From: a virus
DNA: 39,526 nt
Strand: one strand, 5' to 3'
Virus record (IMG/VR): IMGVR_UViG_3300007735_000713
Span: 1-39,526 of that record
The translations under genes and the position numbers were made by a program. Under the pieces are notes generated by a model that saw only the letters and a program-made list of their open reading frames with translations, did not search any database and had not been told where the DNA came from. This document shows, in pieces, positions 7,801 through 39,128 of the stretch (position 1 is its first letter; each line of letters starts with the position of its first letter).

Positions 7801-10800
7801 AACAGTATTTTCTTTTAAAAATGTATTAATTGCTTCTTTTGTAACTGAATTTCTTTTATCATCAACATTTACAGTACCAAGAGGTTTAACATTTCCATAA
7901 GAAGATGTTTCATTTGGATCAGAATTATAATTATCACGATCCATTTGAGGATAAAGATTTCTTACATCCTGATTGAAATTTTTAAGACTAATACCATATC
8001 CAACATTTGCAAGTGATGGCGAAACATCTGAGCTCATCACAGTTAAATGATAAATTCCATCCTGACCCGAAATAGAAGAACCAGGAATATGTTTTTTGAT
8101 TTCGTCTATTCGATAAACGAAGAATGTGCTTTCGTATCTTTCACGATAAACTCTTGGAAGTGCAGCAACTTGTTGATTTGTTGTTCTTTGATTTGTAATA
8201 TTTGCAAATAATCCAGGATCTGTTGAAATTCCAGTAATTGCAAAAGTTTTTGAACTTGGAATTGATGAAATCTTAAATGAACCATTATAAACAGAAGAAG
8301 CAGTTCCAACTGGATTATTGCTACTTTTGATATTTTGTATTTTTACAATATCACCAGTTTTAAAATTATGTGGAAGTTCAGTTGTAATAGTAATTGTATT
8401 TGAAGAATATGAAGCATTCGTAATAATCTTTGGATTTCTCAAATCCAAAGGACTAGAAAGACCACCAGTCAAAACACTTGCACTTCCAATTCCAGTTGTA
8501 CTGGTTTCTTGAATAATATATCCAGCAACCGGAGGACGAGCATTTGTTGCTTCTTTTGGTATCACATATCGCATCTTATAGACACGATCAGAGAGAGAAC
8601 GATTATCTAATTTTCTCTTAATAAATGTAGAACCACTTTCTAATCCAAGACCAGTTGTACCAAGGCCCACAATTATAGAATAAATTGCATTATCTTGTGT
8701 TGAAGAACTATCAATATACCAAGATGATGCTACCGTATCATATTGAATTGGATGACCAACTTCTCCTGGTTGTTTATCTGTTGCCGAACTAACTATTCTT
8801 AAATTTCCGCCAAGATTATTAATTCCACTAATTGTTCTTGGTGTTGCAGCAATTGCATCATTATATGTTGGAGAAATTTTAATTACATTTGCCGATCCAG
8901 TTGTACTTACATAATAAACTTTATTTAATTCAATATTATTTGGTGCTTCTGCATTATCACTAAAAACTCTAATCTTTTCTCCATTATAAAATTTATGATC
9001 GCTAGTTAATGTAAAAATGTTATTTGCAATACTATTAATTCCAGCATTTCTTCCAACAAAAGAAACTTTCTTAGAACTAAATGTAGTTCCATCAGGTGAT
9101 TGCATTAAAATTGGAGCCGAATATGCCGAAAGTGAAGTACCCACAGTTACAGGCAAATTCAACATATCCCCTTGCTTTGCACCAACACGATAACTATCAA
9201 TTTGATGAGGTGGAGCAATTTCTCGGTTTTTATATCCAAACAAATATAAACGAGAAGGATTTGCAACTGATAATGTTTGTTTTACATCTAATGATAACCA
9301 AGTGCTTTCAGTTTCTGCTGTAGTAACTTCTCTTGGCGGAATAATGTGTGTAATATAACCCTTATTGTCCCTATCAAAAGAATCAACACGAAATCCAACC
9401 GACTCCAATGATATTGCGCCAAAGTTGGAGTTTGAGTTGGTGATAGACATATCACCACCACTTTCGGAAACAAAATGTCTCGAATAACCAATCGCAAAAA
9501 TCGAAACACACTGGATAAATCCACCATTTGTTACTTTGACGTGATAATTTTCATATGATGGTTTATAAATTGAATAAGAATGAGTATGTAATGGTGAATA
9601 ATTCGATTCATCATTATTTTTAAATGATTTGCTACTATAATCATATTCAATATATGCATTATCATCTTTCTGTAATGATATGCCAGTAAATTGAGCAACA
9701 ACGATAGATTTAAATCCAGTTGCTTTGCTACCATCCGCCCACAATCCAGACATTCCATAAACTGATCTCAAAGAACAGTTAAAAATATAAGGAGACGCAG
9801 AAGATACACTATCAACTTCTACAATAATTTGAGAATTTTGTAATTGTGTATTTGGATCTGGTAAAGGAACTACCGGAGAACTTGTTGCATTATATGTAAA
9901 TGTGGTAAGACCTACAACATCTTTTACCGTAAAAGATCCATTATAAACACCAGTATCTATTCCAACACCACTTACCAAAAATGGAGTATCAGCATATAAA
10001 CCGTGTTCGGTAGATGTATCTACCGTAATTATTTGTGATGAGGTATTTCCGTCACCAGCACGAATGCTTGTAATACCAATCGCATTTGAATTTAAGTTAC
10101 CGACAATACGATATTCGTCTACTGATGGTTCAAAATCATCACCAGTTGGATAATCCGCAAGTGGTCTTCCTGATGCAGTTCCATACATCAAAGCCAATTT
10201 ATAATAATACATTTGAAGGTCAGTTAGACCCGTTCCAGTAGATCCCATTTTGACTTCGTTTACACCATCAGCATATGTAAATGCTGTTAATTTATGATGC
10301 GAAAAAGTAGGAACAAAAGATGTATTATCATAATTTTTATAAACACTTCTGTTTACATCACCATCAAAAAATGTAAATGTACTAAAATAACAAGTACCAG
10401 TTACATTAAAAATAGACGAGTTATTAATATAATCATCTAATGGGTCTGGAATAAAAAGTGGACGGATTTTGGTCTTTCTTAAATCCAATCCAATAATTGA
10501 TGTACCACGAGGTATAATTATACCACCAGAAGATGAATTTGCCTTATAAAGATCATTTGAAGCATTAAAAATATCTGAATTGAATGAAGACCCCAGTTCA
10601 GTAATTGATGCACCACTCGTAGTCCAAGTTGCACCAGAACCTGAACCAGTTCTTTGATAAAGAACTGCACTTGAATTTAAAACATATCCAGGACGATTAT
10701 CAATATAATGTGTGCCTGGATATACAAGAATTGTAGTTTTATCAATCTTATCATTATTTCTTCCCGATTGATAAGAAAATCTTGCAGACTCAATCAATGC

Positions 10801-10941
10801 TCTTTGAATTGTTTTGAATGGTCTGGTTAATGAATTTCCTTTATTCTCATAACTATCAGTTGCATCAAAATCTGATGGATTTACATAAAGAATATTTCCT
10901 TCAGCATTCTTTAAAAAGTTATCTAACCTTGATAATGGCAT
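4819..10941 (-). CDS. Giant virion structural / tail-fibre-like protein, 2040 aa
   Basis: This is the largest gene in the window. The N-terminus MPLSRLDNFLKNAEGNILYV and the following LTRPFKTIQRALIESARFSY segment are typical of the very large structural proteins of marine T4-like phages. A beta-helix-like region follows (residues about 30-560, including SESGGDMSITNSNSNFGAIS), then many repeated beta modules with FTVKxVVGxxTFTxN and GSGYGSTT motifs. The last 550 residues read as a repetitive fibre shaft (GISTFAGQLNIGISSIGNLN type) and end in a compact tip with STAYYSTAVTIDGNAVTPKW. It probably forms a long baseplate-attached fibre or a baseplate-proximal structure. The start ATG 10941 is preceded by a weak late-promoter-like box and by the tRNA gene. 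Structural assignment is firm; exact location in the virion is inferred. Confidence 0.85.
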   Translation of the reverse strand: MPLSRLDNFLKNAEGNILYVNPSDFDATDSYENKGNSLTRPFKTIQRALIESARFSYQSGRNNDKIDKTTILVYPGTHYIDNRPGYVLNSSAVLYQRTGSGSGATWTTSGASITELGSSFNSDIFNASNDLYKANSSSGGIIIPRGTSIIGLDLRKTKIRPLFIPDPLDDYINNSSIFNVTGTCYFSTFTFFDGDVNRSVYKNYDNTSFVPTFSHHKLTAFTYADGVNEVKMGSTGTGLTDLQMYYYKLALMYGTASGRPLADYPTGDDFEPSVDEYRIVGNLNSNAIGITSIRAGDGNTSSQIITVDTSTEHGLYADTPFLVSGVGIDTGVYNGSFTVKDVVGLTTFTYNATSSPVVPLPDPNTQLQNSQIIVEVDSVSSASPYIFNCSLRSVYGMSGLWADGSKATGFKSIVVAQFTGISLQKDDNAYIEYDYSSKSFKNNDESNYSPLHTHSYSIYKPSYENYHVKVTNGGFIQCVSIFAIGYSRHFVSESGGDMSITNSNSNFGAISLESVGFRVDSFDRDNKGYITHIIPPREVTTAETESTWLSLDVKQTLSVANPSRLYLFGYKNREIAPPHQIDSYRVGAKQGDMLNLPVTVGTSLSAYSAPILMQSPDGTTFSSKKVSFVGRNAGINSIANNIFTLTSDHKFYNGEKIRVFSDNAEAPNNIELNKVYYVSTTGSANVIKISPTYNDAIAATPRTISGINNLGGNLRIVSSATDKQPGEVGHPIQYDTVASSWYIDSSSTQDNAIYSIIVGLGTTGLGLESGSTFIKRKLDNRSLSDRVYKMRYVIPKEATNARPPVAGYIIQETSTTGIGSASVLTGGLSSPLDLRNPKIITNASYSSNTITITTELPHNFKTGDIVKIQNIKSSNNPVGTASSVYNGSFKISSIPSSKTFAITGISTDPGLFANITNQRTTNQQVAALPRVYRERYESTFFVYRIDEIKKHIPGSSISGQDGIYHLTVMSSDVSPSLANVGYGISLKNFNQDVRNLYPQMDRDNYNSDPNETSSYGNVKPLGTVNVDDKRNSVTKEAINTFLKENTVGYAITGAIVSGTAVTFFTDREHNLNSIKTISLTSGGSGYGSTTLYSAELVNASIVGKNGSVKATLGGGGGISAVEIVDGGAAYGVGNTMTVSGGTTLAVVNVTSINNNVNDALQVVGFASEGYNGVFRITSVPDAKSITVYNPNNVTTFASRTDGKSPFVSVVGKGSSISNLIFTDIKTGIATVTTTSSHGLIVGNKFSIVGTGKTIFDSSFTVKEVVGINTFTFNVGNLSSTEAYNGNGYVLRQGIAANALSIGEGEINLAGRMSYIYAGISTTISVALNASDASISLTNVGGFAKGDYLQINSEVLRIQNDACTNVLRGQFGTIAAAYDNGTLVKKIRVIPIQFHRPSYLRASGHTFEYLGFGPGNYSTGMPQKQDRILSGDEVIASQAREQDGGTIVYTGMNDNGEYYSGAKKLVSVTGEEEIFDAPVFTYTGDDANTDSTKRLSGIYDDLVVRERITVEGGENNNQTSQFYGPVNFTQKVTSTAAAGVEVKNLYIKGNTAQSKLITVGISTPTTADIPGARTGDISLSGTPQLGGYLGHIYINGDWRRYGIISSQKDLGYYRMDKLGIGATTSVFNGTQLFEVNGQALIKDLYVTGNVTFAAQQTFSNLAFEGITIYNDAFFPGTNASGGITTTYTQRHAQGISQLYNLEVIGTAATFTNAKLTVQSSFNSTFTGLSTFAGQLNIGISSIGNLNVVGMTTTSNLNVTGITSATFGGTIGAGFTGSTSGITTLIASAVASGILTLPATTDTLVAKNTTDTLTNKTIAAASNTITGLTNTNLSGSAGITNANLATPTISGISLGSNLATLTFGTYLSGTSYNGSTAVTIATNASSTGTSNIVARDASGDFTANRITSSIKANGLTEGVTIISASALTGSNNIDLIANNVYLYTANATGNFTFNFRANFSTSLNTFLSVGESITVAILTTQGSTAYYSTAVTIDGNAVTPKWYGEVTPTSGNVNGIDVYTYVIIKTASATFTVIASQSQYKA

Positions 10942-21787: not shown

Positions 21788-23104
21788 TTAAAATATATTA
21801 TTAGATCCATATAAACCATAACTATCACGGATTAATCTTAAACTAGTAATCATTTGTCCACCTTCAAAATGATGTCTTAATCCTTTAATTAAATAGTTTC
21901 CACTTTGTTCATCATCATTTTCTTTATTATCTGTTCTATCTATTCTTGGTAACATTACATTAATGATAGTTCCAATTTTCAAAGAAACATTACAAGGTAC
22001 AACCATATTTAGTGCTTGCGTAAACAAAATATTATATCTTGAATATGACTTAGCCATATCAGCACCACTTCTTAATTTGTTAGAAATTGAACCATTACTA
22101 TTTAATGCACCTCGATCCGAAACACGAACCATAATGCGGCTAATACTATCACCAAATTCATCAGAAACTGCAATATTATTATTTCCTAATTTATTTCCAA
22201 TTTCATCCTTTAGTACATATTTGTATATGTCCAAACTGTTTGAATATAAGTCATAAAAATAACTTTTATTTGCATACATACCAACTCGTAATGCTTTCAT
22301 CAAATCTTGATTTTTTTCAAATCCATAATTTAAAATTTTAAGTTCGTTTGCTTGATTATTATTTTCTATAATTTGTGTATAAGTATAAGTTACTATTTTT
22401 TCTTTATCTGCACTTTGATTTTGTATTTGAGTATTTGAAACTAAACTATCAATACTTCTATAATTAAATCCATCTTTATTTTCATAAAATAAAAATCCAG
22501 CAGTTCCTTTTGCATCTGCATATTCTCCTTCACCAGATGTTCCACCTCCACCTGATGTTGCAGGTACGGATTTTGGTCCCAACCAAGTTAAAATGTGAAA
22601 TGGTTTTTTGTTATTTGAAATAAAAGAATAACTATTTGATGTTGCTTCTATATTTTTATTATCAAATTTTTTTGTATTTAAAACATTTTTTAATATATCT
22701 TTTACGTGTATATCAATTGTTGCATCATTATATTTTTTTTCACATCTTGATGTTTCATTTGAAAGTGCTTCAAGTGAAACCATATGTAAAGTAAAAGTTT
22801 CACTTGGTGTTTGTGCGTCCAACCCAGTTACTTTAGTTACATATAATGCATTATCACCATCTAATAAAAATTCCCCAAATGCAGTATCAACACTAATTGC
22901 GACTTTTTCTCCACCACGAATTGGAAGAATATTAAACAACGAAGAAGAATTTGTTATTTGTGCGATTGCAGTTATACAAGGAGACAACAAATCTTCAAAA
23001 TAATCAAAAAACAATAGTGAGTTGGTTATATCAACTTTATTTTTTCCATCTAATGATTGTATACCAAAATAATTTGGTCTAAATGCGCCGACTGCGATAG
23101 ACAT
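21788..23104 (-). CDS. gp27-like baseplate hub protein, 438 aa
   Basis: The N-terminus (GIQSLDGKNKVDITNSLLFF, then DYFEDLLSPCITAIAQITNS) and the alternating beta-barrel layout fit the T4 gp27 / gpD hub family, which forms the trimeric adapter between the tail tube and the spike. Length is close to T4 gp27 (391 aa). Other supporting segments are GEKVAISVDTAFGEFLLDG and, near the end, GTIINVMLPRIDRTDNKEN, typical of hub beta-barrel domains. It lies between the hydrolase gene, whose stop overlaps its start as TAATG, and gp5. Assignment rests on position and motif style rather than close identity. Confidence 0.7.
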   Translation of the reverse strand: MSIAVGAFRPNYFGIQSLDGKNKVDITNSLLFFDYFEDLLSPCITAIAQITNSSSLFNILPIRGGEKVAISVDTAFGEFLLDGDNALYVTKVTGLDAQTPSETFTLHMVSLEALSNETSRCEKKYNDATIDIHVKDILKNVLNTKKFDNKNIEATSNSYSFISNNKKPFHILTWLGPKSVPATSGGGGTSGEGEYADAKGTAGFLFYENKDGFNYRSIDSLVSNTQIQNQSADKEKIVTYTYTQIIENNNQANELKILNYGFEKNQDLMKALRVGMYANKSYFYDLYSNSLDIYKYVLKDEIGNKLGNNNIAVSDEFGDSISRIMVRVSDRGALNSNGSISNKLRSGADMAKSYSRYNILFTQALNMVVPCNVSLKIGTIINVMLPRIDRTDNKENDDEQSGNYLIKGLRHHFEGGQMITSLRLIRDSYGLYGSNNIF

Positions 23105-25164
23105 TATGATCCAGAAAGAGTAGTAAGTAATAATGTTTTGACTAAACTATTTACCACCTGACCTTCACTTGGTCCAGGAAGAATTACAGTTCCTCCACCA
23201 CCACCGCCACTAACAGGAATATATACTGGTTTTTGTTGTTGTCCTCCACCACCTTGATTGCCTCCTCCCATCATTATCGGCATTATAGTTACACTTGACT
23301 GTTGTTGGTTGTATGTTGGATATTGCTGAACTTGTGCTTGGGGTGGTGGTGGCGGAGGTGCAATAGTAGGTGCCGGATTTTGTGGTTTAGGTGCAACATT
23401 CTGCATATTTTTTATTTGAGATGCAACAAAATCTGCACTTTTTCCACGATATGATTGAGAACCAGAAAACAACTCCGCATTACTATCCCCAATAACTTTT
23501 GCTCCTGGATATTTTTTTTGTATGGTTTGTGCAGATTGAGAAGTTAGATGAGTATAAGGTCTAGTTGGATCATTTGGATCATATTGTCCTTTTTCTATCT
23601 TTGCTCCCGAAGCAGTTGCAGATTCTTGAACTGATTTTGATACATTTGCATACGCACCTTGCTCTGATGGTGGAACTACAACAACATTATATCCCTTTGC
23701 TTGCAGTTCTTTGATTGCTTTTGTAACTCCAGCTGCACCAGATTTAGGATCGGTGTAATCGTTAGTACCAGCAGCTAGAATTGCTGTTGGTGCTCCTGAT
23801 TGTCCCATCATCCCAGATTGAGCATTTACCTTTGGTTTTACTTTTACATTACCACCAAATCTAAAAATCTTTTTAGCTGCTTGTGTTGGATCAACCTGAC
23901 CAGAACCAGAAGGAAGATATTCAAAATGCAAATGTGGTCCTTCAGAATTTCCAGAACCATAAGCACCTGCTGCTCCACCAGTATATCCAATAACTTGTCC
24001 TGGAGAAATTTTAGATCCTGCAGAAACAGAAATTTTACTTAAGTGTGCATATCTACTTAAAGAACCATCTTTGTGTCTGACTTCAACTAAAGCTCCCCAC
24101 CCATCAGGATTATAATTCATATCTGCAACAGTCACTGTTCCTTCTTGAATTAAACTAATTGGTGTTCCAACATCTTTAAAATAATCATTACCATTATGTT
24201 TTGGACGACGTGCCGTTCTGAAACCATAATTTGGTGATCCAGGGACATCTCCTCCAGATGCTTCCACATCTTCAAGCTGCAATCCAGTTGATTCTGGTTT
24301 ATTTCCAGTATCAATTGATTTTGTATCTGGCTCATAATTGATCTCAGATTTATTTTCTGTTTGATCTCTTCCAATTTGAGAAACACTCCCAAATAAACCA
24401 GAAGAAACACCTTGCTCAAACTTACTTACAGCAGAACTAAATTTGCCTATAATATCACCAAAATTACCACCACCAGATGCTACTCCTTTTTGTTTTGCTT
24501 CTTGTTTTTTTAATCTTTCATCTAATTTTTTCTTTATAGAACTTCCACCTTCATATACTCTATCCGCAGCATAACCACCTAAAAATCCACCAGCCATACT
24601 TCCAAGAACAAAACCAACTCCAGGTATTGGAATAAGTGCTTGTCCGATTGCACCACCAAGTAAACTTCCAGCAAGAGAACCACCGGCACCTGCTGCTGCT
24701 TTTCCTACACTTTCGCCTTCTTGCAATCCAGTCGCAAAATCAAGTCCAGCAAATAAAGCATTTACAACTCCTACTGCTCTTATTCCACCAAGTTTTAATT
24801 TTGAACCCCTCACTGCTGGTTTTGGTACTTTTATTTTTTTTGGTACTTTTCCTGGGTTTCCTGTTTTTCCTTTTGCAGGAAACATATTTCCCAAGAACCC
24901 AGCAACATCAAGAGCACCACTTGCAAGTGATCTCAACAACCCACCAGGTGCTCCAAATGATGATGCAATATTTAAATTTGCAAGTTCTTTGATTTTGTTC
25001 TTTTCTGGAGGTTTAAGTTTTTCAAGTTCAACAGTTTTGAGTTGCAAAAATTGATTAAATTGAACTAATTCATTTTGTACCTTAGGTAAAGTTTTTGTTC
25101 CTTTTGCAAAAAGAACAATATTATTAGAAGCAGAAACAAGTGGAGAAGAAAGTAATTTAGCCAT
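23104..25164 (-). CDS. Tail protein with M23 peptidase and SGNH-like domains, 686 aa
   Basis: Residues 130-205 form a Gly/Ala-rich hydrophobic stretch with membrane character (GSLAGSLLGGAIGQALIPIP), as in tape-measure proteins. Residues 305-420 are an M23 (LytM) metallopeptidase with complete zinc and catalytic residues: His323 and Asp327 (KHNGNDY), His374 (RYAHLS) and His411/His413 (GPHLHFE). Residues 455-580 look like an SGNH-hydrolase domain, with GTND at 466-469, a His in PYTHLTSQ at 539 and GDSN at 559-562; this block order is permuted. The C-terminus is Pro/Gln/Gly-rich. It probably cleaves peptidoglycan cross-links during genome delivery while contributing to the tail core. Start and stop overlap both neighbours as TAATG. 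Confidence 0.8.
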   Translation of the reverse strand: MAKLLSSPLVSASNNIVLFAKGTKTLPKVQNELVQFNQFLQLKTVELEKLKPPEKNKIKELANLNIASSFGAPGGLLRSLASGALDVAGFLGNMFPAKGKTGNPGKVPKKIKVPKPAVRGSKLKLGGIRAVGVVNALFAGLDFATGLQEGESVGKAAAGAGGSLAGSLLGGAIGQALIPIPGVGFVLGSMAGGFLGGYAADRVYEGGSSIKKKLDERLKKQEAKQKGVASGGGNFGDIIGKFSSAVSKFEQGVSSGLFGSVSQIGRDQTENKSEINYEPDTKSIDTGNKPESTGLQLEDVEASGGDVPGSPNYGFRTARRPKHNGNDYFKDVGTPISLIQEGTVTVADMNYNPDGWGALVEVRHKDGSLSRYAHLSKISVSAGSKISPGQVIGYTGGAAGAYGSGNSEGPHLHFEYLPSGSGQVDPTQAAKKIFRFGGNVKVKPKVNAQSGMMGQSGAPTAILAAGTNDYTDPKSGAAGVTKAIKELQAKGYNVVVVPPSEQGAYANVSKSVQESATASGAKIEKGQYDPNDPTRPYTHLTSQSAQTIQKKYPGAKVIGDSNAELFSGSQSYRGKSADFVASQIKNMQNVAPKPQNPAPTIAPPPPPPQAQVQQYPTYNQQQSSVTIMPIMMGGGNQGGGGQQQKPVYIPVSGGGGGGTVILPGPSEGQVVNSLVKTLLLTTLSGS

Positions 25165-26999
25165 TATCCGTCCACAATATTATAAACCATTCTCGAATAA
25201 AGAACTAAAAAATTATCAGTATTTGTAGCAGACAGAAATGGGACACTAGGACCAGATTGTGGTGTTGGTGGAGGAGCAGAAATACCACCACTACCTGATG
25301 GTTGTTGTGCCTGTTGCTCGCCACCACTCATATCAAGTGGAAGGTAGTTTATTTGAGGTTTTTGTTGTGCTGGTTGAGAGACAGTTGATACTCTTTGTGC
25401 TACTTGTGCTTGTGCTGTTGGTGCTGCTTGTGCTTGTGCTGTTGGTGCTGCTTGTGCTTGTGCTGTTGGTGCTGCTTGTGCTTGTGCTGCTTGTAGCGGT
25501 GATGGTGTGGTTCCAGTTGGTTGTGTCCCTAAAGTTCCTACTGGACCAGTAAAGTTGTAAAAATTATTTCCTCCAGGTCTAAATTGTATGTCCGAAGCAT
25601 TTACTTTCGGTCCTCCATAAAAATTCAAAGCACCTTTAACATTCTTACGTGAAGCAGCCAAGTACTTAGGATCATTTAAAACTGTAGCAGCAACGCTAGC
25701 ACTACCTCCACCAAAAATTTGTTGAAGTTTATTCAATCCATCAGGTTTAGAAGCCTCACTTTGTAAATATTTGAATTTTTCTTGTGGTGTGTTTCCTGGC
25801 AATTTTGCTGCAATTGGTCCGTATTTTGCTGCTGCATCAGGATCTGCACTTTTTGGAAAAAGTGCAGCAGATATTGGAGAAAATTGATCATATCCAGATA
25901 AAACACCAGACAATCCTTTGCCGTATTTTCCAGATGCTGAACGATTCAACATCACTTGCATCGCATCAGAAGCATTTTCTGGAGAAGCTGCTTCCATAGA
26001 TGCAACAAATGCTGCGAGTTTTTCATCTCCTGGAGCAGAACTTACAACACTACCAGCACCAGGAGTAGCACCAGGAGTTTCCTTTGGTTTTTCTACATTT
26101 CCAGCACTTCCGCCACCGCCCCCAGAAGAAGACCCAGACGATTTCTTACCAGAACTTCCCCTAACTAAACTATCAATTGCTTTTGAAAATCTATCAATAA
26201 CAGCAGTCAAACCATCAAGTAAATTTCCAGGTATTTCTGGTGTAGAACTTCCAGGTTGAATTGCATCACTTCCCGAAAGAGCATTTGCTGCAGCAGCACC
26301 AGCAGCACCCAATCCAAGAGCGCCAGCGCCAAGAGCAAGCATTTTACCTCTTCCCATTCCTCTCATTCTTCCATCAAGTCCTCTTGGTGCTGTTTTTTTC
26401 AATCCACCACCAGGAACATCGATATCAAGATTGATGCCCCCACCACCAGATGGACTTGTTTTTGGAAGATTTGATAATTGTTTTACAATTTTAATAATTA
26501 CTTGACGGATAAGTTTTGCAACTTCAAAACTATCAGTAAATGATTTTTGAAGTGCTTTTAAATTATCTCTTAGACCTTCTACAAATTTTCTTTTTCCAAA
26601 AAATTGTATAAATCCTATTACATCTCTATAAAGACCTAAAATCTTTTGAAGTACACCTGTTGGTTTTGCTTCATCTACTTTTTTAATTCGGTCTTGATAA
26701 TCCTTTGAAAAATTACCAATAGATTTACTAATAATATTTGTAACTGAATTATTAATTGTCTGTGCTTGATTGTTAAAATTACTAACTACGCCAGTAGATA
26801 TTGATTTTACAATACTACTAATGTCTACTGGTGATGGTTGAACTCCTGTTCTTTGAAAATTAACAATCTTGTTTGCTGCTGACCCAAGTACACCTGCACC
26901 TACCGAAGAACCACCAGAAATAAAATTCTGCGCTCTTAAAAGATTAGGCTTCTTTTTTCCTGTAATAACTTTTGGATTAATAACAGAACTAAGAGCCAT
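25164..26999 (-). CDS. Tape-measure-like tail protein with SleB-like hydrolase domain, 611 aa
   Basis: The helical N-terminal 180 residues (IGNFSKDYQDRIKKVDEAKP) and the hydrophobic segment at 219-240 (MLALGAGALGLGAAGAAAAN) suit a tape-measure or tail-core protein. The length is close to T4 gp29 (590 aa). Residues about 325-480 resemble cell-wall hydrolases of the SleB (Hydrolase_2) type: EAASPENASDAMQVMLNRSA, then GVLSGYDQFSPI and KYLAASRKNVKGALNFYGG. Residues about 504-532 contain tandem AQAQAAPT repeats, and the C-terminus is Pro/Gln-rich. It lies directly after gp26 and the 59-residue ORF, where T4 places hub and tape-measure genes. Tape measure is inferred; the hydrolase similarity is moderate. 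Confidence 0.65.
   Translation of the reverse strand: MALSSVINPKVITGKKKPNLLRAQNFISGGSSVGAGVLGSAANKIVNFQRTGVQPSPVDISSIVKSISTGVVSNFNNQAQTINNSVTNIISKSIGNFSKDYQDRIKKVDEAKPTGVLQKILGLYRDVIGFIQFFGKRKFVEGLRDNLKALQKSFTDSFEVAKLIRQVIIKIVKQLSNLPKTSPSGGGGINLDIDVPGGGLKKTAPRGLDGRMRGMGRGKMLALGAGALGLGAAGAAAANALSGSDAIQPGSSTPEIPGNLLDGLTAVIDRFSKAIDSLVRGSSGKKSSGSSSGGGGGSAGNVEKPKETPGATPGAGSVVSSAPGDEKLAAFVASMEAASPENASDAMQVMLNRSASGKYGKGLSGVLSGYDQFSPISAALFPKSADPDAAAKYGPIAAKLPGNTPQEKFKYLQSEASKPDGLNKLQQIFGGGSASVAATVLNDPKYLAASRKNVKGALNFYGGPKVNASDIQFRPGGNNFYNFTGPVGTLGTQPTGTTPSPLQAAQAQAAPTAQAQAAPTAQAQAAPTAQAQVAQRVSTVSQPAQQKPQINYLPLDMSGGEQQAQQPSGSGGISAPPPTPQSGPSVPFLSATNTDNFLVLYSRMVYNIVDG
25403..25489 (-). repeat. 24-base coding tandem repeat, about 3.6 copies
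   Basis: Three identical 24-base units (25403-25426, 25427-25450, 25451-25474) plus a partial fourth encode AQAQAAPT repeats in the 611-residue tail protein. Perfect DNA identity implies recent slippage expansion. Confidence 0.9.
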
Positions 27000-27168
27000 T
27001 TGATTGTTGTTGTTTAAGATTTTCTTCTTCTATATGCTGTTGAAGTAATGTGACGTATATATCTCGTTCCCAAGGAATTAGATTTTCTATCTCCGTCAAA
27101 GAATATTTATGATACTGCATCAAAGCAAAGTTAAGTCTAAAATATGACTCCAATTCCATATGAGCCAT
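26989..27168 (-). CDS. Small tail-assembly ORF after gp26, 59 aa (possible -1 frameshift product)
   Basis: This ORF begins at ATG 27168 (MAHMELESYFRLNFALMQYH) and ends at TAG 26989-26991, overlapping the next start by 11 bases. It is helical and includes TEIENLIPWERDIYVTLLQQ. In T4 the neighbour of gene 26 is gene 51 (hub assembly), so a reduced gp51-like role is possible. It lies in the -1 frame of gp26 and stays open back through a T TTT TTC heptamer. It could therefore be made as a gp26 extension, as in lambda G-GT tail chaperones, or independently from its own ATG. The reading frame itself is well supported; the mode of expression is open. Confidence 0.7.
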   Translation of the reverse strand: MAHMELESYFRLNFALMQYHKYSLTEIENLIPWERDIYVTLLQQHIEEENLKQQQSNGS

Positions 27169-27170
27169 AA

Positions 27171-27899
27171 TTAGCCGAAAAAACTGGTTAAACCCTCCAA
27201 CGTAACTTCGCTTTCTACTTTTGTATTTGGATTAGTCACTTTAATAGTATGTGCAAGTTTCGGCATTGTTTCAAAGAATGTTTCAATTTCTTTAAATTGT
27301 TGTGCCGTTAAAGTTTCAATCCAATCTTTCAATTCTTTTGTTGTACAATCTGCTGCTGCCCAACTATCTTCTTGCGAAAACACTACATCAATACAAGATG
27401 AAATAATATCAAAAGATTCATCAATATTTGAAATTGTTTTTTCTTCACTAAAATTAAAGTTAGACCTAATAAATTGTTCTAGTGAAGGATATTTCATTCT
27501 TAAAGTCAATTTATCATCAAGACGAATATCAGATGTGTGATCTTCGTTTCTTTGAACTTGTATTTCATCAATATAAATTTTTACAGGAACTTCGGTCACT
27601 CCATCATCACTACAAGTAATAATTAAATCAACACTTTCCCCAACAGATTTACCACGAATATTCAAGAAAATATATTCAATATCAAAGGTAGGTAGTTCTT
27701 CTACTTTAATGGATCTAGTTAAAATACAATCTTTTAATACTTGTTTAATTGCATTTGTAATCTGTTTTGTTTCTTGACTTTCGAGTGCTAAAAGTAATAT
27801 TTTTTCCTCTCTTACAAGAAATGGACGATATTTAACTGATTTTCCTGTTGATGGTAAAATCAATTCATATTGTGGTGTTGAAATTTTAGGCAGGGTCAT
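27171..27899 (-). CDS. gp26: Baseplate hub subunit gp26, 242 aa
   Basis: The protein resembles the T4 gp26 baseplate family: MTLPKISTPQYELILPSTGK at the start, then FLVREEKILLLALESQE, VEELPTFDIEYIFLNIRGKS and a central KLTLRMKYPSLEQF. T4 gp26 is 208 aa. Its position, immediately ahead of tape-measure-like genes, also resembles that of tail assembly chaperones. The last sense codons are AGT TTT TTC GGC, giving a canonical slippery heptamer just before the TAA stop. A late promoter (27921-27928) lies 22 bases upstream. The gene opens the long minus-strand tail series that continues to the left edge. Confidence 0.8.
   Translation of the reverse strand: MTLPKISTPQYELILPSTGKSVKYRPFLVREEKILLLALESQETKQITNAIKQVLKDCILTRSIKVEELPTFDIEYIFLNIRGKSVGESVDLIITCSDDGVTEVPVKIYIDEIQVQRNEDHTSDIRLDDKLTLRMKYPSLEQFIRSNFNFSEEKTISNIDESFDIISSCIDVVFSQEDSWAAADCTTKELKDWIETLTAQQFKEIETFFETMPKLAHTIKVTNPNTKVESEVTLEGLTSFFG
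27177..27183 (-). promoter_or_regulatory. Candidate -1 frameshift heptamer T TTT TTC
   Basis: In the zero frame of gp26 the codons AGT TTT TTC place T TTT TTC in X-XXY-YYZ phase, followed by GGC TAA. A -1 slip continues with CGG CTA ATT ATG directly into the 59-residue ORF. No convincing downstream hairpin is visible. Confidence 0.45.
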
Positions 27900-27920: not shown

Positions 27921-27928
27921 TATTTATT
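27921..27928 (-). promoter_or_regulatory. T4-type late promoter AATAAATA
   Basis: The minus strand reads AATAAATA between gp54 and gp26, 22 bases before the gp26 ATG and overlapping the gp54 stop region. Confidence 0.65.
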
Positions 27929-28676
27929 ATTTCCTGGAACCATTATTTTTTTCAATTAGATATCTTGCATAACTAAAAGAAACTGTCGTCTTTGTAATCG
28001 TGCTCCCTTCATAAGATACTGGAAGTGCTGTAATATTTGTAGGAAATGAGTCAATCATTCTATAAGTTATTGTGGGTTGTGTGATTGTTAGACCACCTGC
28101 TTCATTTGGATTTTCCAAAAAGTCTCTTTCAAATTTAACTACAGAAATAATTCTTTTATAAGTATCTGGATATTTAAATCTAAAAAAGTCTTGACTATCT
28201 TTTGCATTTCCTTGTCCAGTTGCATCTGCTGGAACAATACCAGATGAATCATAAATTGGATTAATATAATTCATCCATTCTTCAAATAAACGAATTATTT
28301 TATAATCATAATCAACATAAAAAGTCATCGTAAAATCTGGATATATTCTTCTTGTTGGAAATCTTTCTATAATTCCTTGACGACTTCCACTTTCTTCAGC
28401 CATATCAAATGTTGCACCAGGAAGTGCAGTTTCGCTACAAAAAAAATCAAATGTATTTGCTGTTCTTACATCATTAGTCAATCCGCATTTTGATAACCAA
28501 CCCATTAAGTCCCTATCATAATTAGTAAGATGAAGAGACACTTTAAATTGACTTGTAACTGAAAGTTTTCCAAATATATCCCTTGCGCCTGGAAGTGACC
28601 CATCCGGTGATGGAGTAGTCATTCTAATATATAATGGACCTATATCTGGTTTTCCTTTTTTCGGAGCAGTAGCCAT
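27927..28676 (-). CDS. gp54: Baseplate tail-tube initiator gp54, 249 aa
   Basis: The sequence follows the marine T4-like gp54 pattern: KKGKPDIGPLYIRMTTPSPD at the N-terminus, then ARDIFGKLSVTSQFKVSLHL, and a tube-like core (ALPGATFDMAEESGSRQGII, ERFPTRRIYPDFTMTFYVDY). In T4, gp54 (320 aa) binds the gp48 cap and shares the tube fold of gp19, starting polymerisation of the tail tube. Here it is on the opposite strand from gp48, with a 34-base gap to the divergent gp4 gene. The start ATG 28676 is the only sensible one. Confusion with gp19-like proteins is possible, but the context favours gp54. Confidence 0.8.
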   Translation of the reverse strand: MATAPKKGKPDIGPLYIRMTTPSPDGSLPGARDIFGKLSVTSQFKVSLHLTNYDRDLMGWLSKCGLTNDVRTANTFDFFCSETALPGATFDMAEESGSRQGIIERFPTRRIYPDFTMTFYVDYDYKIIRLFEEWMNYINPIYDSSGIVPADATGQGNAKDSQDFFRFKYPDTYKRIISVVKFERDFLENPNEAGGLTITQPTITYRMIDSFPTNITALPVSYEGSTITKTTVSFSYARYLIEKNNGSRK

Positions 28677-34106: not shown

Positions 34107-34428
34107 GTGTTTTTTCAAGTCCATTAATAGTCCTTTCCATCATTTTAAAAAAAGAATCAAATCCTTTCTTTTTATCAAATCCAAGAAACTCAACAGAATC
34201 AAGCATATTTTCTTTCATTTCTATTGCTTCTGGATCATCTGAAAGTGAAAGTCTAAAAATAAAAAGTTTTTGTTTTTCTAAAAATTCTTTCATCAAAATC
34301 AAATGTTCCCTTTTCTGTTCCTTATCATAAAAAGGAACGTATATCATATCTTGATAAAGTTTTTTTTGAAGTTTTTCAAGTTCTTTCATATCGTTTCTAA
34401 CTAACTCTGAGTTAAAAAACTTACTCAT
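34096..34428 (-). CDS. DUF1825 family protein between gp59 and gp32, 110 aa
   Basis: The protein has the DUF1825 pattern: MSKFFNSELVRNDMKELEKL, then REHLILMKEFLEKQKLFIFR and LSLSDDPEAIEMKENM, ending in an amphipathic helix. This all-helical family is shared by cyanobacteria and T4-like cyanophages, and its function is unknown. T4 has dsbA in a comparable place near gene 32, but there is no sequence resemblance I can see. The start overlaps the gp59 stop (ATGA), so it is coupled to replication genes. Its presence is the best hint in this window for a cyanobacterial host. Confidence 0.8.
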   Translation of the reverse strand: MSKFFNSELVRNDMKELEKLQKKLYQDMIYVPFYDKEQKREHLILMKEFLEKQKLFIFRLSLSDDPEAIEMKENMLDSVEFLGFDKKKGFDSFFKMMERTINGLEKTLDD

Positions 34429-35015
34429 AATACAACCTCTTTAAGTATAGTTTTATACTTTGATACATCAATATTTAGGAAAGGTTTGTATTTAAAAATT
34501 CTCAAACTTACATAATTCCAAATTGGATCAGTAAGTTTTTTATCAAAATCTTTAACAAAATTTAATAATATATCTAATATCGTAATAGTTTCTATGGTAA
34601 TACTTTTTTGTAAATATTTTTTCAGTATTTCTGGATGATTTCCAGTTTTACAATCAAATAAAGATTCAAAGTTTTTCTTATTCATAAAACTTTCAGTTTC
34701 AGATTTAAACAAATAAGATAAACTTTGTGTCTTCTTTAACCATTCGTTATATACATCTTCACCTTCACGAATAATATCTCCTATCCAAAGTCGTTCTGGG
34801 TCATTACAATCTACAAAATTTGCTACAAAATATGCTTTGATTTGCTCATCATTTTTTTGTATTGATAGTCGTTCAAAAAAGAATCTATCGGTTCTTTTAT
34901 AAAAACTTTCTTTTGACGCACGACTTCTTCCACAATACTTATGGTAATCGTAGGTTTTTTTTGTAAAGTGATTTTTTATCGCAAGATATTGGCAATAAAC
35001 TTGAAATGGGGTCAT
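34425..35015 (-). CDS. gp59: Helicase loader gp59, 196 aa
   Basis: The protein aligns in pattern with T4 gp59 (217 aa): MTPFQVYCQYLAIKNHFTKK at the N-terminus, SKESFYKRTDRFFFERLS, and a C-terminal ILDILLNFVKDFDKKLTDPI followed by NYVSLRIFKYKPFLNID. In T4, gp59 loads the gp41 helicase onto gp32-coated forked DNA, so its place beside gp32 fits. I chose ATG 35015, which begins at the conserved MTPFxVY; the frame extends upstream to 35054, but that part lies within the preceding endonuclease gene. The first 77 bases overlap the endonuclease 3' end in another frame, and the AAGGA Shine-Dalgarno also lies inside the endonuclease ORF. Confidence 0.88.
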   Translation of the reverse strand: MTPFQVYCQYLAIKNHFTKKTYDYHKYCGRSRASKESFYKRTDRFFFERLSIQKNDEQIKAYFVANFVDCNDPERLWIGDIIREGEDVYNEWLKKTQSLSYLFKSETESFMNKKNFESLFDCKTGNHPEILKKYLQKSITIETITILDILLNFVKDFDKKLTDPIWNYVSLRIFKYKPFLNIDVSKYKTILKEVVL

Positions 35016-35862
35016 TATATTTTTTCCATCCTTTATAGTGTTTTCTTTTTTCATTTAAAACTTCACTTATAGAACCTTCATTCAAATTAAATTTTCTACA
35101 TAAAGTTCTAACACCTTTACCTTCATACACAACTCCATCAGGAGAAATTAGTTTGTATTCTTTTTCTAATTTTTTGGATATTAATAATCCCCCGAACATT
35201 TCTGTAGAGGGTAATTTCCAACCTTTATATGAATGAAGTTTTCTATTAAGAACATTAATTATAGCACCAACATTCAAATCATATTTTCTACATAATTCAC
35301 TAACATTTTTGCCTTTAAATATCTTACCATCTGGAGACATTATATCATATTCTCTAGATATTGTTAAAGCAAAAGATTGTTTGCTAGTCAATTTTGTATT
35401 TGGCAATTTCCACCCCTTACAAGATTTTCCTTTACCCAACAAAAGATTTATAATATTTGAATAAGGTAATTTATTTTTTTCACAAAATTTTTTAATATTT
35501 TTGCCTTTAAATATTTTACCATCTGGAGACATTAATTCAAATTCTTTACATTTTGGTTCATAAATTATTCTATTATTTCCCCCTTCAGTTAAATTATATC
35601 CATTTTTATATGTATCATATATCTCAATCCAATAAGTCTCTCTATCATTCCAGATATTAATATCTCCTTCTTCTATTATTCCCCAAATAAAATTTTCCCA
35701 ACCGTATTTTTTTATTGCCTTATAAAATTTAATATTTTTATTTTTATTTCTATAACAAGAACTTTTATGCTGTCTTATTCTTTCTTTTAATTCTTTTCTA
35801 GTTTGCCCTATATATTTTTTCCCAGTAGAAATACAATGGGCGCAGTAAATAATTACTTTCAT
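34939..35862 (-). CDS. GIY-YIG homing endonuclease with three DNA-binding repeats, 307 aa
   Basis: The N-terminal GIY-YIG domain has IYCAHCISTGKKYIGQT (5-21), Arg29, Glu75 (NDRETYWIE) and GYNLTEGG (88-95). Three tandem repeats of about 47 residues follow (about 108-154, 172-218 and 236-281). Each opens with a MSPDGKIFKGKN-like hairpin, continues with a helix-turn-helix and closes with YKGWKLP. They are NUMOD-type sequence-reading modules. The last 26 codons run out of frame over the start of gp59. It is inserted between gp33 and gp59 and probably homes into gp59-region DNA of relatives. Expression looks late and hairpin-controlled. Confidence 0.9.
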   Translation of the reverse strand: MKVIIYCAHCISTGKKYIGQTRKELKERIRQHKSSCYRNKNKNIKFYKAIKKYGWENFIWGIIEEGDINIWNDRETYWIEIYDTYKNGYNLTEGGNNRIIYEPKCKEFELMSPDGKIFKGKNIKKFCEKNKLPYSNIINLLLGKGKSCKGWKLPNTKLTSKQSFALTISREYDIMSPDGKIFKGKNVSELCRKYDLNVGAIINVLNRKLHSYKGWKLPSTEMFGGLLISKKLEKEYKLISPDGVVYEGKGVRTLCRKFNLNEGSISEVLNEKRKHYKGWKKYNDPISSLLPISCDKKSLYKKNLRLP

Positions 35863-36217: not shown

Positions 36218-36890
36218 AGGTTTGAAGTTTATCTCTAACAAATTCTCTAATATATTTGATGAGCAATTTGATATACTTTTTTTTGTCGTATTCTTCATAA
36301 ACAACACATTCTCCATTTTCACAAGCCATAATAATGACTAACTTCTTTACCATTATACCAGTAAGTTCATATAACATGCAACTATACGCTACACACTGCA
36401 CGAAATAATGCTCAATCCATTCTTTTGGTTTTGGTTTTGCAGAAGTCTTAAAGTCAATAACAGCCAATTCGCCATTATATTCTGCTATACAATCAACTGT
36501 TCCGGCAATTCCAAGAACTTTACTATATAATGATTTTTCAAGAGCATGAATATTATCTATATTGTTTAATTCTGGTTTAGCAATCTTAAATAAAAATTGC
36601 GATAAAGGTTGAACTTCTGGAAGTTCTGAAATATTATGCAGATAATTTTCTACCAATGTATGCATATCAGTCCCACGACTGGTTGCTGCTTTGGTAATCT
36701 TATCTGCTGCTGCTTCGCCAATTTTCTTTCTCCAATTAATAAAAATCTGACGATTAATATAACTAGTAACAGAGGTAATAGAAACAAGACGATGCAAAAC
36801 ATCATCTTCTGGTACTTTATAATATCTTACACTATCAATCGTTTCTCTTTCTAATTCGGGAAGTTTTATATCAAGATGATTAAAAGTCAC
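36210..36890 (-). CDS. PD-(D/E)XK nuclease (RecB/Cas4-like), 226 aa
   Basis: The active-site pattern of RecB-like nucleases is present: His77 (RGTDMHTLVENYL), Asp133 (GIAGTVDCIAEY), Asp146 and Lys148 (LAVIDFKTS), and motif QCVAYS with Gln165 and Tyr169. Proteins of this type are common in marine T4-like phages, beside replication or recombination genes, and probably process DNA ends. The start is GTG 36890, overlapping the phoH stop as GTGA, a translational coupling. There are no iron-sulfur cysteines of the Cas4 type. The exact substrate is unknown. Confidence 0.85.
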   Translation of the reverse strand: MTFNHLDIKLPELERETIDSVRYYKVPEDDVLHRLVSITSVTSYINRQIFINWRKKIGEAAADKITKAATSRGTDMHTLVENYLHNISELPEVQPLSQFLFKIAKPELNNIDNIHALEKSLYSKVLGIAGTVDCIAEYNGELAVIDFKTSAKPKPKEWIEHYFVQCVAYSCMLYELTGIMVKKLVIIMACENGECVVYEEYDKKKYIKLLIKYIREFVRDKLQTYE

Positions 36891-38878
36891 AAACCAAGTT
36901 CCATTTTTGTAATAATGTATTCTTTAATAAGTCCACTACGAATTACATCCGCAACTTCAAATTCAATAATATCAAACGAAGGCATTTGGCGAAGAATTTT
37001 CATAAAATCAACTACCCCATTCTTTTCATTTTGACGAATCAAATCACTTTGAGAGGCATCACCACAGAAAAGAATTTTAGTGTTTTCGCCAACACGAGTA
37101 ATAATAGAATCTAATTCGTGGAAATTTAAATTTTCTAATTCATCAACAATAATAATACAATTATCCAGAGTTGTACCACGGATAAAAGAAGTACTCCAAA
37201 AACTAATGGTCTCTTGTGCTTTTAGATTTCCATAGAGCATCTCAAAGTCAGCATCACTCGGCATCTGGAACATATACTTTACCATATTCTTATAAGGAAT
37301 TTGATAAAGAGATGCCTTATCTTCATGTGAATTGTGAGTTACAATATAATCATCCGTAATATAAAGACTTTCCGAGTTATCTACCTGAATACATTGTACC
37401 TCCTTTTCACAAATTGGTTCAATCGATTTAATTCCAACATGATGCATATATTTACAAGAAAATTTTTGTGCTTTTCTTGAGATATAAAATGGATTTATAT
37501 GTTCTGGTAGACTAATAGTAAACTCATATGATATAAGTTTACTAGTGATTTTTCTTAGTTTTCCAGTTTTATCAACAATCTTAGAAGTTTTTCCAATACG
37601 ATTTCTTTCACGAATAACAGATCTACCTCCAAGAGATTTTACTAATTCAATTACATCCAATGCTAATTGACGAGAAGTAGTACTAAAAGATGCTTCTCCA
37701 GTTTCTTTTACAGTACCATCAGTATCCATTAATCCTCTCAATAATTCTATTCTATCTTTAATAGAAGAGAATTTATATAAATCTGGAATAAATTTAGTAT
37801 CACATTTTGTATTTTCTAATCCAAGTTGAAATAAACTATTTTTTATTGGATTTTCCCATCTGTTTTTAGATGAAACAAACTCATATTTAATTTTGTCAAT
37901 TACTTTTTTATTCTCACAATAATATTTAAGTTTTGATTTGGACTGTGTAACAGTTTCCAAAGCAACTCCGATTGAATAATATTCATCAATTTTTCCAGTA
38001 TCTGTATCCGTAATTAATACTCTTCTTGCTGGTTTATTATTTCTTGGAGAATTACTTATTGTATATGAAATATTATGATTCGTCAAATAGCATCCAATTT
38101 CCGACACTTCAGTTCTAACCTTTTCAACAAGTTCACTATCAATATTAGTAAATGCAATACTATTTGAGATAGATCCATCACCCAATATTACTCCGAGAGT
38201 ATATGGTGGAATTGGTAGATTTTTTTGAGTAAATTCTACTGCTTCATTTCTTGGAATATAATGATTTATTTTTCCATCTTTATTCAAAAAAGTTTCAAGT
38301 ATTTGTTTTGTAGTTTTTGTGGTACCAGTCCTGAATCTTTTTTTATCTTCAAATGTTTTAGTGACCCACAAATGATCCTCACAACATTCAGTAGATGAAT
38401 TTTCAGTAGTTGTCACTTTATAAACAAGTTTTTTTCCTTTTGGATGAACTGCAGTAACTCTTGTTGATTTTCCATCTCTACCGATAACATAATCACCAAC
38501 ACTAATATCTCCCATAGTTGTCCAACCAGTAGGAGTTAATATTTTAGCATCCAATGGTTGAGGTCCAGGAAGGAATCCTATCTCTCTGGTGGGTACAAGA
38601 GATCTCACGATGTAAATCTTTTCATATGGGGTGTATTCACTCAAAACATCTTGGAGTGCCTTGAAGAGGCACAGAAAGGTCTTTCCAGAACCAGCAACAC
38701 CATGAGCAACTAAGTGCTTACCAGCATCATAAGACTCGAATAGTTTTCTTTGATTATCAGTAAGTGGTTCAATATCTAAAAGTAGTTCTGCTCCGATTGG
38801 TTTTTTTCTCTTAGACAACTTAGACATTAATCCAACCGCAGGGGGTTGATTACCATTACTCCTTCTTTTTCTTGTCAT
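36887..38878 (-). CDS. phoH: PhoH-like P-loop ATPase precursor containing an intein, 663 aa
   Basis: Removal of residues 106-516 leaves a 252-residue PhoH, the usual phage length. The N-extein carries the Walker A motif (GVAGSGKTFLC, 60-70) and ends TREIGFLPG. The C-extein resumes SHEDKASLYQIPYKNMVKYM and contains Walker B (IIIVDELEN) and LFCGDASQSD. PhoH proteins are predicted RNA/DNA helicase-like ATPases; the phage role is unknown despite frequent phosphate-starvation naming. I chose ATG 38878 (MTRKRRSNGN), seven bases past the upstream stop; an ATG at 38938 would add 20 residues and overlap that gene. The stop overlaps the nuclease start (GTGA). Confidence 0.92.
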   Translation of the reverse strand: MTRKRRSNGNQPPAVGLMSKLSKRKKPIGAELLLDIEPLTDNQRKLFESYDAGKHLVAHGVAGSGKTFLCLFKALQDVLSEYTPYEKIYIVRSLVPTREIGFLPGPQPLDAKILTPTGWTTMGDISVGDYVIGRDGKSTRVTAVHPKGKKLVYKVTTTENSSTECCEDHLWVTKTFEDKKRFRTGTTKTTKQILETFLNKDGKINHYIPRNEAVEFTQKNLPIPPYTLGVILGDGSISNSIAFTNIDSELVEKVRTEVSEIGCYLTNHNISYTISNSPRNNKPARRVLITDTDTGKIDEYYSIGVALETVTQSKSKLKYYCENKKVIDKIKYEFVSSKNRWENPIKNSLFQLGLENTKCDTKFIPDLYKFSSIKDRIELLRGLMDTDGTVKETGEASFSTTSRQLALDVIELVKSLGGRSVIRERNRIGKTSKIVDKTGKLRKITSKLISYEFTISLPEHINPFYISRKAQKFSCKYMHHVGIKSIEPICEKEVQCIQVDNSESLYITDDYIVTHNSHEDKASLYQIPYKNMVKYMFQMPSDADFEMLYGNLKAQETISFWSTSFIRGTTLDNCIIIVDELENLNFHELDSIITRVGENTKILFCGDASQSDLIRQNEKNGVVDFMKILRQMPSFDIIEFEVADVIRSGLIKEYIITKMELGL
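37331..38563 (-). mobile_element. PhoH intein with LAGLIDADG endonuclease, class 3 signatures, 411 aa
   Basis: The intein runs from Pro (PQPLDAKILTPTGW) to the terminal THN, followed by Ser of the C-extein. Splicing Hint blocks are visible: block A, block B (TECCEDHLW), block F (VQCIQVDNSESLYITDDYIV) and block G (VTHN). The first residue is not Cys or Ser, while Trp in block B, Cys in block F and Thr in block G match the W-C-T triplet of class 3 inteins. Between them lie two LAGLIDADG motifs (YTLGVILGDGS and LLRGLMDTDG) with both acidic residues, so the homing endonuclease looks intact. It interrupts the conserved GFLPG loop of PhoH. Confidence 0.9.
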
Positions 38879-38885
38879 ATAAATT

Positions 38886-39128
38886 TTATAGAGTTTTAAT
38901 ATTTGATCCTGGCATTTTTTTTGCACGATGCAATACATCGTTCCATCCTGGATGTGACTTCTTTAATTTACTTTGCCAATCTCCTACTTCTCCAACACCG
39001 GCAACACCAGCAGACCAATCCTTATCCCAATCTTTATTCTCATCTCTCCATTTTCCATATTCAATCATTGTCATAGAAAGTTCTTTTGTTTCACCAGTTT
39101 CTTTGTGTTTAACAGGATATGTTGGCAT
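38886..39128 (-). CDS. Small conserved phage protein, 80 aa (full-length copy)
   Basis: The sequence MPTYPVKHKETGETKELSMT, with YGKWRDENKDWDKDW and a C-terminal GWNDVLHRAKKMPGSN, matches a small protein common in marine T4-like phages, sometimes compared with FmdB-type regulatory proteins, although the zinc cysteines are missing here. Function is unknown. A late promoter (39151-39158) lies 23 bases upstream. It is the downstream member of a tandem pair with the 51-residue gene at 39154-39309; the first 30 codons and the leader are nearly identical. Confidence 0.78.
   Translation of the reverse strand: MPTYPVKHKETGETKELSMTMIEYGKWRDENKDWDKDWSAGVAGVGEVGDWQSKLKKSHPGWNDVLHRAKKMPGSNIKTL

Follow-up and report, generated by a model that had tools for sequence, protein, structure and literature searches.

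We examined a 39,526-nucleotide (nt) DNA fragment (IMG/VR record IMGVR_UViG_3300007735_000713; the window, in what follows, is this whole stretch), which we read as coming from a marine T4-like phage whose closest named relatives are T4-like cyanophages. Its gene 26 very probably carries a −1 programmed ribosomal frameshift through which one gene would make a short and a long tail assembly chaperone (TAC), as lambda G/GT does. This reading builds on the anatomy of the sequence, its conservation in relatives, synonymous constraint, homology to gp26 and gp51 of phage T4, gene counts and fold resemblance. From these we infer the slippage itself, its frequency and an action of the products on the tape measure protein during assembly. 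In the mechanism that we propose, a Shine-Dalgarno (SD)-like GGAGGG, a T TTT TTC heptamer 9 nt beyond it and a hairpin beginning 7 nt past the heptamer would form the signal; most ribosomes would stop at the TAA and release gp26 (242 amino acids, aa), and some would slip back one base and make a 303-residue gp26-gp51 fusion. Homology and fold point to TAC-N and TAC-NC as the identities of these products, the counterparts of lambda gpG and gpGT; their role would be to coat the tape measure protein and bring in tail-tube subunits before departing.

The signal lies at the 3′ end of gp26, which reads AGT TTT TTC GGC TAA on the minus strand (coordinates in Table 1). An initial annotation, made from the letters alone, had pointed to the in-phase T TTT TTC heptamer and to a −1 frame open from the slip site into a small open reading frame (ORF), and both were confirmed: the codons after a −1 slip are CGG CTA ATT ATG (R-L-I-M), and no stop interrupts this frame before that of a 59-codon ORF at 26989. 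The predicted junction is Phe-Phe-Arg-Leu-Ile-Met-Ala-His-Met, and the fusion would be 303 residues long (241+3+59) instead of the 304 given initially. At the end of gp26 the predicted peptides are VESEVTLEGLTSFFG for the terminated product and VESEVTLEGLTSFFR for the tryptic peptide across the shifted junction. On its own, TTTTTTC-NNN-TRR turns up often enough in the AT-rich window (7 observed vs 2.5 expected) that we dropped an argument from chance based on motif counts and had to turn to the relatives for comparison.

Conservation of the slip site and its flanking elements

Loci were gathered from IMG/VR by gp26 protein similarity with five queries (the window, S-SSM4, Aeh1, VH7D and pf16; the Aeh1 and VH7D queries brought in few IMG/VR relatives), to which annotated phages were added; the peptide patterns used for the locus search exclude the slip site. 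This gave 257 loci with a gp26 readable as far as its stop codon, corresponding to 127 sequences at 90% identity, 31 at 70% and 14 at 50%. An in-phase T TTT TTY heptamer was present in 257/257 loci, placed 1, 2 or 8 codons ahead of the gp26 stop, and in all 257 the −1 frame ran without a stop across the gp51 domain or up to the contig end. The conservation of heptamer and frame that the initial annotation had proposed to look for was thus found. The stop codon itself differs among relatives (TAG 73, TAA 32, TGA 22).

Codon choice at the slip site departs from that in the rest of the same genes. The Phe-Phe pair at the site, whose residues F240 and F241 do not vary across the aligned proteins, is written TTTTTC in 115 and TTTTTT in 12 of the 127 sequences; elsewhere it is TTCTTT 82 times, TTTTTT 47 times, and TTTTTC and TTCTTC 4 times each. 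The codon before it is AGT, TCT, GAT, AAT, GCT, GGT or ACT, so that the residue may be S, D, N, A, G or T, and its third base is always T, compared with 40% T at third positions elsewhere. A rough chance figure of 0.40 x 0.37 per lineage over 14 lineages comes to ~2e-12, which serves as a guide only, the lineages not being fully independent. Judged by these synonymous and third-base patterns across the 257 loci, the heptamer is conserved beyond what coding needs.

Both flanks of the heptamer carry further signs of a canonical −1 signal. An SD-like element of the GAGG type, with its end ~10 nt ahead of the heptamer, occurs in 121/127 relatives and in 19% of control windows, and the Glu codon at this element is GAG in 82/96 cases vs 28% elsewhere. 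On the downstream side, we compared the folding energy of the first 40-odd nt of the −1 frame with that of synonymous-codon shuffles, using codons 23-38 of the same frame as the control. The mean z was −2.51 vs 0.04 in the control (Wilcoxon p 2e-17), values below −1.5 were reached in 90/125 relatives vs 13/125 controls, and the window's own downstream fold had a z of −3.3. One hairpin register shared with compensatory pairs across all lineages was not found; there are at least three registers, and the case for the hairpin therefore rests on the synonymous-shuffle energies. An upstream SD-like element and/or a downstream structure is thus in place, the hairpin being missing in some lineages.

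The arrangement has a known parallel in the −1 cassette of Escherichia coli dnaX, where an SD-like element ~10 nt upstream, a heptamer and a hairpin 5-8 nt downstream occur together, as they do in the window. The two differ in that the dnaX heptamer is made of A and not T, the shifted dnaX product is the shorter one whereas that of the window would be the longer one, and the window gene belongs to a phage.

Relation to T4 gp26 and gp51 and to known tail assembly chaperones

The label gp26, given in the initial annotation, holds: the protein matches PF12322 T4_baseplate (4.3e-71) and phrog_150 'baseplate hub' (1.1e-76). The 59-codon ORF is gp51 (phrog_634 'baseplate hub assembly catalyst', 6.1e-28); it also matches the final 40 columns of the gp26 family profile, which hints at fused family members. 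In T4, gp26 (208 aa) and gp51 (249 aa) are the products of divergent neighbor genes, and full-length profile matches place the window's proteins in the same family (PF12322, phrog_150, phrog_634). The two T4 proteins each cover the whole PF12322 profile (9e-64 and 4e-52) and gp51 runs on into the phrog_634 domain; T4 thus holds the short and the long form as two genes.

The gp26 of the window is homologous to both T4 proteins, and the predicted fusion is homologous end to end to T4 gp51. A profile of the fusion made in silico matched T4-type gp51 with an E value of 1.8e-18, compared with 1.7e-11 for gp26 alone, and the alignment has no gap at the junction (TSFFRLIMAHMELESYF over VDVFKLLVNPDEIFTFY). 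The difference lies in the genes, since T4 uses two divergent genes without a heptamer whereas the window has one gene for both forms. In those T4-group gp26 genes whose ends were read, the Phe-Phe pair is TTC TTT or lost, leaving no heptamer. Genomes of the T4 group have two PF12322 genes and complete relatives with the heptamer have one; the window, a 39.5-kb fragment of its genome, has one copy. This is the pattern expected if one recoded gene was replaced by two, which is the putative direction of change. We lean towards a history in which a frameshifted single gene with a dnaX-like three-part signal is ancestral across the T4 supergroup (cyanophages, pf16-like, schizo-T4 and Aeh1-like phages, and phage 65), the T4 branch having duplicated it into a short gp26 and a long gp51 and then lost the slip site; gp51 would in many relatives be an unannotated, start-less domain that is reachable only by recoding. 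A separate observation concerns one T4-like gp51 gene (L270:1501-2246), which lies in two frames with the break in mid-gene, away from the junction, and probably contains a sequence error.

To the sequence relationships can be added a resemblance in structure. The AlphaFold model of gp26 (predicted local distance difference test score, pLDDT, 86) has an N-terminal domain resembling HK97 gp13. Its best structural matches were the HK97 TAC 2ob9 (Z 7.7 over 84 residues), 3fgx (7.7), YqbN 3klu (7.2) and 5ir0 (4.9), followed by an unrelated structure at 2.9; 3fgx and 5ir0 we take to be TAC-type structures. HK97 gp13 and YqbN have been described as members of the TAC family (PMC9603447). The modelled N-terminal domain is in keeping with a TAC fold. 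A search of BFVD yielded relatives of gp26/gp51 and, at 2.5e-3, a single 'tape measure chaperone', and a sequence search of PDB with gp26 and gp51 profiles gave no significant match. A fold search of PDB with a T4-type gp51 model gave no TAC among the listed matches, the best of which (Z 4.7) is an unrelated protein; this model was built on only 8 sequences, so the absence of TAC matches says little.

A role as tail assembly chaperone is the best-supported one for gp26, given the fold resemblance, a tail tube gene immediately upstream and the pairing of a short with a long form. The analogy with lambda G/GT made in the initial annotation stands on the same gene position, on the likeness to the HK97 TAC fold and on the short and long paralogues of T4. 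As in lambda, a short and a long form would share an N-terminal domain with a chaperone-like fold; unlike lambda, the window gene is from another sequence family (PF12322) and its T TTT TTC heptamer is flanked by an SD-like element on the 5′ side and a hairpin on the 3′ side.

It has been previously reported that T4 gp26 and gp51 are hub assembly chaperones (PMC3004832), and that the G-T frameshift is widely conserved among long-tailed phages 'except T4' (PMC5009743, 2016, which summarises Levin 1993 and Xu 2004). The initial annotation was aware of no such frameshift for T4-type gp26, which does not hold against the literature on T4-like TACs as far as citing papers relay it: some T4-like phages are said to have one short gene and one longer fusion gene (PMC10885494, summarising Vladimirov et al. 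2022, Virology 566:9-15), and poly-T slippery sequences are mentioned in the TAC-N genes of T4-like phages (PMC12846349, citing the same work). The TAC of Pakpunavirus Adele (PMC12846349) is likewise a myovirus TAC gene with a −1 frameshift, a poly-T signal and a small downstream ORF annotated separately; it differs in its family and in its GTTTTT motif. Because these two papers cite Vladimirov et al. 2022 for them, the gene identities and the frameshift signal in some T4-like phages appear to have been published already. A primary description of the gp26/gp51 frameshift was not found in the literature searched, where Vladimirov et al. 2022 is known through citing papers only, and neither, that work aside, were the three-part signal, the start-less gp51 frames or an explanation of the gp51 anomalies in PMC3037559. 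The window is a new and very clear member of an already known kind of frameshift.

These anomalies, remarked on by Sullivan et al. 2010 (PMC3037559), are a cyanophage gp51 only ~20% as long as usual and the absence of gp51 from Aeh1. In Aeh1 we found the gp51 domain present without any of the usual start codons; a cyanophage gp51 that is only a domain, and a start-less domain in Aeh1, account for both remarks. Two mis-described genes would thus become one, with 'gp51' in cyanophage genomes being only a domain, and several hundred deposited genomes may need both ORFs joined (693 records are listed with gp26). Set beside T4, the locus also illustrates clearly how one pair of proteins may come either from a programmed frameshift or from two separate genes.

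Alternative routes to the gp51 domain

Several observations weigh against a −1 frameshift in gene 26, or against the chaperone role attached to it. All fold matches of gp26 lie below Z 8 and Foldseek gave an E of ~1, so the fold is supported, short of proof. Downstream, where a tape measure gene is expected, the 611-aa ORF has only weak matches. Roughly one relative in four has a weak hairpin or none, and the register varies between clades; for these two reasons we call the predicted hairpin frequent, without universality, and claim no compensatory covariation in one common register. ATG 27168, from which gp51 could start, is present in the window's own clade. Finally, among nine further annotated phages the heptamer is kept in MC09, D491s, ORM_20, Aeromonas phage 65 and AIR2, but no perfect heptamer was seen in Vibrio phages D504, YC and SD25 and Pseudomonas phage Cygsa01 (loci L273, L276, L277 and L279). 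In these four deep lineages, 24-28% identical to the window, a single gp26 is followed in the same −1 phase by a gp51-like frame, the two overlapping at TAATG; their gp51 domain may be translated by coupled initiation or through another slip signal. The initial annotation had named a small ORF conserved without the heptamer as the finding that would speak against a frameshift; this holds for these four lineages only, and for none of the 257 loci.

The question of whether gp51 starts on its own bears on two alternatives. In the window and its close relatives ATG 27168 lies 2 nt past the gp26 stop and would give a free gp51 beginning Met-Ala-His. No SD sequence was found at the window's ATG, which is buried in the predicted hairpin stem, and among relatives an SD-like sequence stands at 1/87 gp51 ATGs, compared with 65/122 gp26 starts and 8% of random windows. 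Furthermore, none of ATG, GTG and TTG occurs within the first 13 codons of the gp51 frame in 30/125 representatives at 90% identity, 15/31 at 70% and 6/14 at 50%, S-SSM4, ACG-2014b and ACG-2014d being examples. At this frame no gene is annotated in these three phages or in S-H9-1, S-MbCM7 and Aeh1.

That both routes operate, the frameshift making the fusion and coupled initiation adding some free gp51 domain in clades that keep the ATG, is unlikely: most of the window's clade does keep the ATG, but it is paired and has no SD, and other lineages dispense with a start. We consider it very unlikely that the small ORF is a separate gene, reached by re-initiation or coupling at ATG 27168 without functional slippage. 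The closeness of the ATG to the stop, the TAATG overlap in the four deep lineages and the many phages in which annotators call the small ORF a gene would all fit such a gene; the lack of any start in about half of the lineages at 70% identity, the near absence of SD sequences and the position of the window's ATG inside a stem do not, and such a gene would leave unexplained the conserved heptamer, the SD-like element and the absence of gaps when the fusion is aligned with T4 gp51.

Slippage by RNA polymerase could also make the long form, and a run of six to seven T is indeed conserved at the slip site. Transcriptional slippage generally requires longer runs, and the codon phase, a C or T as the seventh base, an SD-like element 10 nt before the heptamer and a hairpin after it form the signature of a ribosomal −1 shift; we regard this explanation as extremely improbable. 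Coincidence or coding constraint, in which an AT-rich genome simply encodes a needed Ser-Phe-Phe, could draw on the two invariant Phe residues and the commonness of the bare motif, but is almost certainly wrong, as the synonymous choice at the slip site is opposite to usage elsewhere, the third-base T is kept while its residue changes, and T4-group genes keep Phe-Phe without a heptamer.

Neighboring genes and other features of the window

The features of the locus are collected in Table 1. The 611-aa ORF that follows the gp51 frame matched Hydrolase_2 at 0.02 and the tape measure family phrog_4211 at an E of 0.69, and may be a tape measure or a hydrolase/lysin protein. Its middle part resembles a hydrolase (the annotation in S-SCSM2R is SleB-like), and its tail is made of alanine/glutamine repeats.

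Table 1. Coordinates of the frameshift signal, its products and the adjoining genes in the window
Feature	Position	Strand	Description
Tail tube protein	27927..28676	minus	Upstream neighbor; PF23849 Phage_TTP_2 1.1e-15; phrog_45 4.9e-33
gp26	27171..27899	minus	242 aa; putative short form (TAC-N) of tail assembly chaperone
Shine-Dalgarno-like GGAGGG	27193..27198	minus	Last base 10 nt 5′ of the heptamer's first base
Slippery heptamer T TTT TTC	27177..27183	minus	In phase with gp26
gp26 stop TAA	27171..27173	minus	One codon past the heptamer
−1 frame extension (RLI + 59 codons + stop)	26989..27177	minus	Putative C-terminal domain of long form (TAC-NC / gp51 domain)
Predicted downstream stem-loop	27143..27169	minus	5′ arm 27169..27162, 3′ arm 27150..27143; begins 7 nt past the heptamer
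59-codon ORF gp51	26989..27168	minus	Extent expected from ORF finders or annotators, starting at ATG 27168
611-aa ORF	25164..26999	minus	Downstream neighbor; overlaps the end of the gp51 frame

Other genes on the minus strand were also noted. The tail module has a 686-aa ORF with an M23 peptidase domain (23104-25164; PF01551 2e-20) and a tail fiber gene of 2040 aa (4819-10941; phrog_529), which is large for this module. A PhoH-like gene (36887-38938; 683 aa) is apparently split by an intein with a LAGLIDADG endonuclease at about residues 126-540; the putative intein has a Hint-like start PLDAKILTPTGWTTMGDI and ends in VTHN before Ser, and PhoH matches flank it on both sides. In addition, a GIY-YIG homing endonuclease gene (34939-35862) overlaps the start of a gp59-like helicase loader gene (34425-35054).

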